A DNA stretch of 64,000 nucleotides from the NCBI GenBank assembly GCA_946186455.1, contig CAMHNK010000001.1, positions 1 through 64,000 on the forward strand. Reading direction: 5' to 3'. The DNA is from an uncultured Candidatus Saccharibacteria bacterium. Its GTDB lineage: Bacteria > Patescibacteriota > Saccharimonadia > Saccharimonadales > Saccharimonadaceae. The notes below the pieces were generated by a model. The model had not been told where the DNA came from, searched no databases, and saw only the letters and a program-made list of their open reading frames with translations. Below, one piece after another: positions 38,229 to 40,005 of this stretch; position 1 is the first letter of the stretch, and each line of letters begins with the position of its first letter. The position numbers and the translations under genes were made by a program.

Positions 38229-38331
38229 TTTTCCTCCAATTTATCTCTATTATACCATAGTTTAACAGGTGGGGGGTTGCAAGATTTTGGTGCTCGTGAT
38301 TTGATTCTCCAAAATAAATAGTGGAGGTAAA

Positions 38332-40005
38332 ATGAAAAGATTATTGTGGTACATGAGTGCCGTAATTTTAGGCATATATATTATATATGGTGGGGAAACA
38401 CGGGCACAAACGAGTTGTAAGGACTTAAGAATTGTCTTTGCGCGTGGGTCTGGTGCACCGCGTGAGAATAATGCGGATTACCAGGCGTTTAAGAATTCGA
38501 TTGAGAATCTAATTAGCGACTCCGGCATTAGCTATGAGTTTATCGATTTAGACTATCCGGCGATTGGCGTAGGTTTTGATAATTTGAACGTGGTGATTGG
38601 TGCCGTGGTTAGTGGAGGTGAAGGGAACGAGTTTGGAGAAAGCGTAAAGGCGGGGGCGACTAATCTCGCACGGATGGTAAATGACGAATGCGCGGATACA
38701 AAATATGTACTTGGTGGGTATTCACAGGGGGCGATGGTAATAATCAAAGCATTGAAGGAAATTCGACCGGAGAAGATTATTTATGCAGCGACCTTTGGCG
38801 ATCCAAAAATCTATTTGCCGGAGGGCGAGGGAATAATGCCAGCCGCTTGCCGAGGCGAGAACCTGTCGCCCTACCGCATGTATGTACCGGACTGCATGGC
38901 ATATAAAGGGTTGCTCGGGGCTTACATTCCGTATGTGACGGATGAATACTTAAGCAAAGTGGGGACTTGGTGTAACAAACGAGATATCTTTTGCAGTTCT
39001 AGGTTTAGTATTAGCGATCACGTGAGTTATGAGAGTACTGGGCTCTATGAAGATGCGACGAAAGTAATATATCTAAAAATTGCCGATGCGTTCGGGATTG
39101 ATAAGCGCGTAGTGTCGCCACACGATACGGTGTTTTTAATCGATGCAACGTGGTCGATGGAAACGATGATTGACGCGTACAAGTCTGAGGCTTTGCGTCT
39201 TGCAAAAGAAACGCTGGATAGTGATGGCAGAGTGGCATTATTCGCCTACCATGATTTAGATGATTTTGCGGATTCCTTGGTGCAGTATTGTGATTTTGAA
39301 AGTTGTGATTCAATTGAAACTTTTGAAAGTAAAATGAATGAGATTGTAACGGAATATGGCGGCGATTTACCGGAGTCGCTTTTATCTGCGTCGTTTCATT
39401 TAATGAAGAGTCTAAACTGGAAGCTTGGCTCGACGAAATCTTTGGTAGTTCTGACGGACGCTGGCTATCATTCGCCAGATCGGGATGGCACAACTTTTGA
39501 TGCTGTTGTAAAACTCAGCAAGGAGATTGATCCGGTGAACTTTTACGTGATTACGAATGAAGAGATAGCTGATGAATATGTGGATTTGACTAGTGCAACT
39601 GGCGGAAGAGTGGAAACGGATTTTGGCAAGCTAAATCTGCTCACAGATTATATTATGGAAAGAAGCGACGCCTTGCCACGAGTCGAGGAAATACCGGAGG
39701 AAGTGCCGGCGCTCGAAATCCTGTTCCAATCTTACTATGCAGATACCGCAACGATTAGATATGCGACTGACGGGCAAAAGGTAATTGTGATTATCAATGG
39801 ACAAATTATTGGAACAACGAACGAAAAAGAAATAACGATTACCGACCTAGATCGAAGAATTGAAAATGAGATTATGTTAGTGCCGATTAATAATGACGCG
39901 CGGGGCGAGGCAAGTGTGATTACGGTTGCGTCCGATGGACTCGGCGGGGCAAAAAACGACCTGCCGGTCGTGATTCCAAAAGCCCCTAATACGGGAGGGC
40001 ACTAG
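38332..40005 (+). CDS. Secreted cutinase-like serine esterase fused to a VWA domain
   Basis: Signal peptide MKRLLWYMSAVILGIYIIYGGETRAQ; cutinase CKDLRIVFARGSGAP, GGYSQGAMV, CNKRDIFC, SDHVSYE; VWA-type TVFLIDATWSMETMIDAYKSEA...SLVVLTDAGYHSPD; ends PKAPNTGGH. Confidence 0.85.
   Translation: MKRLLWYMSAVILGIYIIYGGETRAQTSCKDLRIVFARGSGAPRENNADYQAFKNSIENLISDSGISYEFIDLDYPAIGVGFDNLNVVIGAVVSGGEGNEFGESVKAGATNLARMVNDECADTKYVLGGYSQGAMVIIKALKEIRPEKIIYAATFGDPKIYLPEGEGIMPAACRGENLSPYRMYVPDCMAYKGLLGAYIPYVTDEYLSKVGTWCNKRDIFCSSRFSISDHVSYESTGLYEDATKVIYLKIADAFGIDKRVVSPHDTVFLIDATWSMETMIDAYKSEALRLAKETLDSDGRVALFAYHDLDDFADSLVQYCDFESCDSIETFESKMNEIVTEYGGDLPESLLSASFHLMKSLNWKLGSTKSLVVLTDAGYHSPDRDGTTFDAVVKLSKEIDPVNFYVITNEEIADEYVDLTSATGGRVETDFGKLNLLTDYIMERSDALPRVEEIPEEVPALEILFQSYYADTATIRYATDGQKVIVIINGQIIGTTNEKEITITDLDRRIENEIMLVPINNDARGEASVITVASDGLGGAKNDLPVVIPKAPNTGGH

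Follow-up and report, generated by a model that had tools for sequence, protein, structure and literature searches.

The Cutinase/CE5 family (PF01083), which includes the fungal cutinases and the mycobacterial Culp proteins, owes its name to the hydrolysis of cutin, although its enzymes also hydrolyse triacylglycerols and phospholipids (PMC3699616). Fusions of a cutinase to a VWA domain are carried on Rhodococcus plasmids from soil, sediment and sewage, whose products, annotated as 'cutinase family protein' (e.g. WP_268656063.1), are arranged in the order cutinase, VWA and PKD-like domain. Epibiotic Saccharibacteria do not synthesise fatty acids, and little is known of the means by which they penetrate other bacteria and draw nutrients from them. 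Judging from a title cited in PMC12592800, mutations in the mycolate pathway of Gordonia amarae render it resistant to Mycosynbacter amalyticus, a Saccharibacterial parasite. Our search of the literature found no report tying Saccharibacteria to cutinases in the sense considered here.

The current study concerns a cutinase-VWA gene in the window (the entire 64,000-nucleotide stretch of DNA that was analysed), where an ORF of 557 aa with an ATG start was confirmed at positions 38332-40005 on the forward strand (Table 1). Named relatives identify the organism as a Saccharibacterium of a genus which, from the titles under which these relatives are recorded, derives from the ruminant digestive tract (rumen, omasum and intestine); the source genome comprises 706,831 bp and is 83% complete. 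In most relatives a GGAG-type site is likewise present ahead of the chosen ATG. Given a pairwise dN/dS of about 0.09 and a matching protein in 71 of 76 same-genus genomes, the ORF is not a chance occurrence, and the gene is under purifying selection. When compared to the homologue L033, the region encoding the signal peptide and the cutinase part (window:38332-39117) exhibits a dS of 0.26, as against 1.28 for the VWA part, and this low value suggests recombination within the gene. Downstream of the stop codon, a short frame on the reverse strand (window:40006-40200) ends in CEYGDHYHLSSN, and similar DNA is located 3' of the gene in many relatives.

Table 1. Features of the cutinase-VWA gene and its product, in window coordinates.
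Feature	Position	Strand	Basis
Shine-Dalgarno sequence GGAGG	38323..38327	+	sequence
Signal peptide-like N-terminus, residues 1-27 (MKRLLWYMSAVILGIYIIYGGETRAQT)	38332..38412	+	basic n-region, hydrophobic core; helix 2-19 predicted
Cutinase domain, residues 28-244	38413..39063	+	Pfam PF01083 E=5e-20; fold search
Catalytic Ser131 in GYSQG	38722..38724	+	invariant among same-genus proteins
Catalytic Asp218, flanked by C214 and C221	38983..38985	+	invariant among same-genus proteins
Catalytic His230 in SDH	39019..39021	+	invariant among same-genus proteins
VWA domain, residues 267-409; MIDAS D271-x-T273-x-S275 + D376	39130..39558	+	Pfam VWA_4, integrin-type fold
C-terminal beta-rich module, residues 461-532	39712..39927	+	strands predicted, pLDDT about 80
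Tail PKAPNTGGH, sortase-like xPxTG motif, no TM helix after	39976..40002	+	tail conservation in genus

The first-pass annotation had described the product as an exported protein in which a cutinase-family esterase with a Ser-Asp-His set is joined to a VWA-like domain, and this description was upheld by profile and structure searches; neither a missing triad nor a missing export signal, the two grounds for refutation named in that annotation, was observed. Both domains score above their curated Pfam cut-offs, the Cutinase profile at 72.6 bits (cut-off 25.9) and VWA_4 (PF25106) at 31.8 bits (E=1.3e-7; cut-off 27). The three catalytic residues are unchanged in 20 same-genus proteins and the triad is retained in all cutinase-bearing Saccharibacterial members of the family that were checked; two further sequences, L170 and L173, are without GYSQG and cannot be clearly classed as cutinases. 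Sequence searches of the PDB matched cutinases and one CE5 esterase only, while a fold search employing a model of the cutinase domain (pTM 0.70, pLDDT 62.4) ranked solved cutinases first (1xzd, 1oxm and others), with an E-value of about 1e-8 (7.5e-9), TM-scores of 0.5-0.6 and about 16-21% identity. The cutinase domain is thus predicted to adopt an alpha/beta-hydrolase fold. Both this model and the full-length one (pLDDT 67.5) are of moderate confidence only, with values below 50 in the lid and in the Asp and His loops, and for this reason the triad assignment rests mainly on conservation.

Concerning the VWA part, the fold search with the full-length model returned integrin beta I-type domains at 10-17% identity, and the residues of the MIDAS metal site are present in the window protein (DATWS and TDAG). 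In the homologues L045 and L147-L150 and in several sister genera, however, the MIDAS is degenerate or lost while the enzyme is retained, indicating that the hydrolase represents the constant core of these proteins and the VWA domain an accessory; a role of the VWA domain as the essential adhesin is accordingly not supported. In several sister genera and in the actinobacterial relatives the VWA domain is followed by a PKD domain, in a position comparable to that of the beta-rich module of the window protein.

The protein is predicted to be exported by means of its signal peptide-like N-terminus, as judged from composition (a basic n-region, a hydrophobic core and no second TM) rather than by a trained predictor. 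Such a segment is found in every relative, in some cases with a long basic extension. At the opposite end, the proteins of most sister genera terminate in a TM helix, a full LPSTG-TM-basic signal being present in one copy from g11 (L146), whereas the window's genus has no such helix and in the window protein neither a TM helix nor a basic tail follows the xPxTG motif, so that the tethering suggested by the first-pass annotation is not supported here. Instead, the LPxTG-like pentapeptide APNTG is present and the protein terminates two residues past the motif. An xPxTG-type tail lies near the C-terminus of all 43 distinct proteins of the genus (no more than five residues from the end in 39 of these). 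The proteins end in xPKAPNTG and a few further residues, P549, P552 and G555 being invariant and the preceding linker unalignable, while looser versions, for example APDCG and APNSG, are seen in divergent members. The tail resembles a recognition motif for sortase that has been freed from its TM. Two other explanations of the tail were considered and rejected: approximately 50 loci revealed no consistent hydrophobic frame 3' of the stop codon that might represent a frame-shifted TM anchor, and within the source genome APNTG occurs at a terminus only in the cutinase-VWA protein, which does not support a genome-wide secretion tag.

The source genome encodes three sortases and six other proteins with PxTG, TM and basic tail, the TM anchor being present in its other exported PxTG proteins. 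These six candidate sortase substrates (L092:1357-1809 +, L096:10139-11041 +, L099:10219-13521 +, L103:9000-10262 -, L122:1268-5107 - and L130:7623-8453 -) include two of more than 1000 aa, in a genome of 0.7 Mb. A separate set of large exported proteins (L106:494-6409 +, L121:447-4442 +, L132:3338-4780 + and L135:4148-5587 -) shares the ending (I/V)RC(I/V/F)xxx, possibly representing a common C-terminal domain.

A cutinase was detected in 100 of 105 sampled genomes of the genus, and in most genomes the gene is single-copy. A class-wide sample yielded 145 carriers among 396 genomes and 20 among 152 genera, related genes extending to further families and orders of this class, while above-cut-off matches in a phylum-wide draw came exclusively from the window's class. 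Since most genera and about 5% of the genus genomes are without the gene, the Saccharibacterial lifestyle does not in general depend on it. In named loci the order uracil-DNA glycosylase (UDG), dCMP deaminase, cutinase-VWA, TypA and TatD is mostly kept, some of the loci showing insertions and inversions. Once the closest few genus-mates are set aside, the cutinase-VWA protein is about 49-58% identical as compared to about 72-92% for UDG, the deaminase and TypA, a faster divergence than that of the neighbouring genes and one that is expected for a surface or host-facing protein. The locus is thus fixed, vertically inherited and fast-evolving, and is no recent arrival.

Fourteen cutinase genes of g11, a sister genus within the family, (L052-L065, e.g. 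L053:1614-3167 +) contain one to three in-frame TGA codons, many of them at columns occupied by Trp in relatives, and 11 of the 14 share a single TGA column (E-TGA-[KR]-x-F) at which other members often have Trp. TAA or TAG interruptions were not found in the cutinase-homologous part of these frames, nearly all of which otherwise extend to the C-terminal TM, L062 being broken by a run of Ns. A genome-wide TGA=Trp code was rejected for the g11 genomes tested: of 20 genomes, 19 carry RF2 at scores above cut-off, the remaining one (G248) being 73% complete, an intact SPF motif is present in all four RF2 copies from g11 that were read, the tRNA-Trp of G094 has a CCA anticodon without a Hirsh-type change, and Trp codons favour TGG by 67:0 and 89:1 in conserved genes and by 55:0 and 35:0 in other g11-aligned genes. 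Selenocysteine was likewise discarded for G094, whose top tRNA-Sec match is a tRNA-Ser(tga) gene; the equivalent top matches in other genomes score alike. The codons may reflect either UGA read-through confined to this gene or silencing of the gene. Elsewhere in G094 (L187; C1:134355-134557), a normal tRNA-Lys is adjoined by a tandem pair of identical tRNA-Lys-like sequences, which bear an extra hairpin and score below the Rfam cut-off for tRNA.

The fusion is not unique to Saccharibacteria, since among actinobacterial relatives the Rhodococcus plasmid proteins also have it; these match the window protein at only about 23% identity and form a separate clade. A closer copy is located on a plasmid of Arthrobacter sp. 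zg-Y1110 (L152:3815-6310 +), where an ORF of 831 aa, of which the C-terminal part alone is annotated (WP_231711996.1, 'PKD domain-containing protein'), displays the signal, cutinase, VWA and PKD arrangement of the Saccharibacterial proteins. Its product is 47% identical to the Saccharibacterial protein L144 and 32% identical to the window protein, and in the tree it is positioned inside the Saccharibacterial clade (100/100), a single actinobacterial clade being disfavoured (AU p=0.022); the GC content of the gene is 60.9% compared to 64-66% in its flanks. These data fit a transfer from Saccharibacteria, or their unsampled kin, to Arthrobacter, the direction of which is tentative as actinobacterial sampling consisted of plasmids only. 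The recent acquisition from Actinobacteria that had been envisaged is, in contrast, unsupported by the trees, as the closest actinobacterial copy found is nested inside Saccharibacteria and the family is old and largely vertical by genus within the Saccharimonadaceae. Similarity to a Gordonia phage lysin B (LysB) was weak (tblastn, 30.5% over 54% of the query), as was that to mycobacterial cutinases, both being distant and long-branched in the tree, and a scan of viral contigs revealed no relative.

With regard to function, the exported cutinase-VWA enzyme is conserved and probably active, and we consider its most probable role, at a probability of roughly 0.55, to be that of an extracellular lipid esterase by which neighbouring or host cells are damaged or fed upon. 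Ketoacyl synthases were absent from all 25 source and related genomes examined and present in all 14 control genomes, while a glycerophosphate-type acyltransferase is encoded by the source genome and several relatives. The maintenance of this acyltransferase despite the missing ketoacyl synthases indicates that fatty acids from outside can be used, and for a cell that depends on obtaining them and has an exported cutinase, their release from neighbours is plausible. In such a mechanism the protein would leave the cell through Sec and act outside as a cutinase-family serine esterase, most likely on the ester-linked lipids of a neighbour or host (acylglycerols, phospholipids or envelope glycolipids); their cleavage would damage the envelope of that cell and/or liberate fatty acids, which the Saccharibacterium is unable to synthesise. 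The VWA and beta modules might position the enzyme on a partner, either the surface of the host or one of the bacterium's own proteins, through metal-dependent binding; in the window's genus the enzyme would not be anchored in the membrane but secreted or attached to the wall, and the conserved xPKAPNTG tail may serve as a sorting or docking tag. Of the host-directed role originally suggested, the lipid esterase acting on a neighbour or host is retained, being in keeping with the missing ketoacyl synthases and with a gene that evolves fast, while the tether and the essential VWA adhesin are not.

The habitat of the genus weakens a host-envelope reading to some extent, as dietary plant cutin offers an alternative substrate in the ruminant gut. 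An enzyme that degrades plant cutin or lipids of feed or bile, and thereby feeds the cell directly with no bacterial host as target, would suit both the rumen, omasum and intestinal origin of the named carriers and the activity for which the family is named; we nevertheless regard it as unlikely, since related genes are not confined to the family and order of the genus within the class and are also carried by Rhodococcus plasmids from soil, sediment and sewage, and since rapid divergence is more usual in host-facing proteins. A self-directed enzyme, remodelling lipids or lipoproteins within the envelope of the Saccharibacterium itself, could account for the membrane anchor of most sister genera and for a conserved gene that is mostly single-copy, and yet most genera of the class manage without it, the anchor has been lost in the window's genus, and the location of the VWA and PKD modules outside the cell suggests that the target lies outward, all of which renders this role very unlikely. 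Least probable of all is a LysB- or Culp-like mycolyl-ester hydrolase specific to mycolate-bearing hosts, for while the weak similarities to LysB and mycobacterial cutinases and the mycolate pathway implicated, by the title mentioned above, for one Saccharibacterial parasite point in that direction, these relatives are distant and long-branched, the literature found documents no mycolate-bearing hosts for ruminant-gut Saccharibacteria, and Arthrobacter, which carries the gene, is not known to have mycolates.

The neighbour- or host-directed lipid esterase may also be embedded in a more elaborate scenario, in which a dedicated exported cutinase would open and digest host lipids, the TM-less xPxTG tail left by anchor loss in the ruminant-gut genus would constitute a new mode of sorting or release, UGA read-through would gate expression in g11, and the gene would have been passed to an actinobacterial plasmid; that all of these hold jointly is distinctly unlikely. 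The cutinase-VWA protein nonetheless presents, in one genus-wide exported enzyme that is mostly single-copy and has an intact triad, a target that can be directly cloned and assayed, while two additional testable questions are posed by the exchange of the gene with a plasmid of an actinobacterium and by the loss of the anchor with retention of the xPxTG tail.

In comparison to known systems, the window protein shares with Cutinase/CE5 members the GYSQG nucleophile, the Asp in a disulfide-flanked loop, the His and the RGSG oxyanion region, and differs from them in its fusion to a VWA domain and a beta module; its cutinase domain is about 40 residues longer than solved cutinases and has an insert ahead of the Asp loop. 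The Arthrobacter plasmid protein terminates in a sortase signal (LASTG, TM and RRRR) that the window protein does not have, and the LPxTG-type sortase substrates of the source genome, with which it has the xPxTG motif in common, possess the TM helix and basic tail that it lacks. It therefore represents a known architecture in a new version, anchorless and with an xPxTG tail, and a good candidate for attack on, or feeding from, the lipids of other cells.
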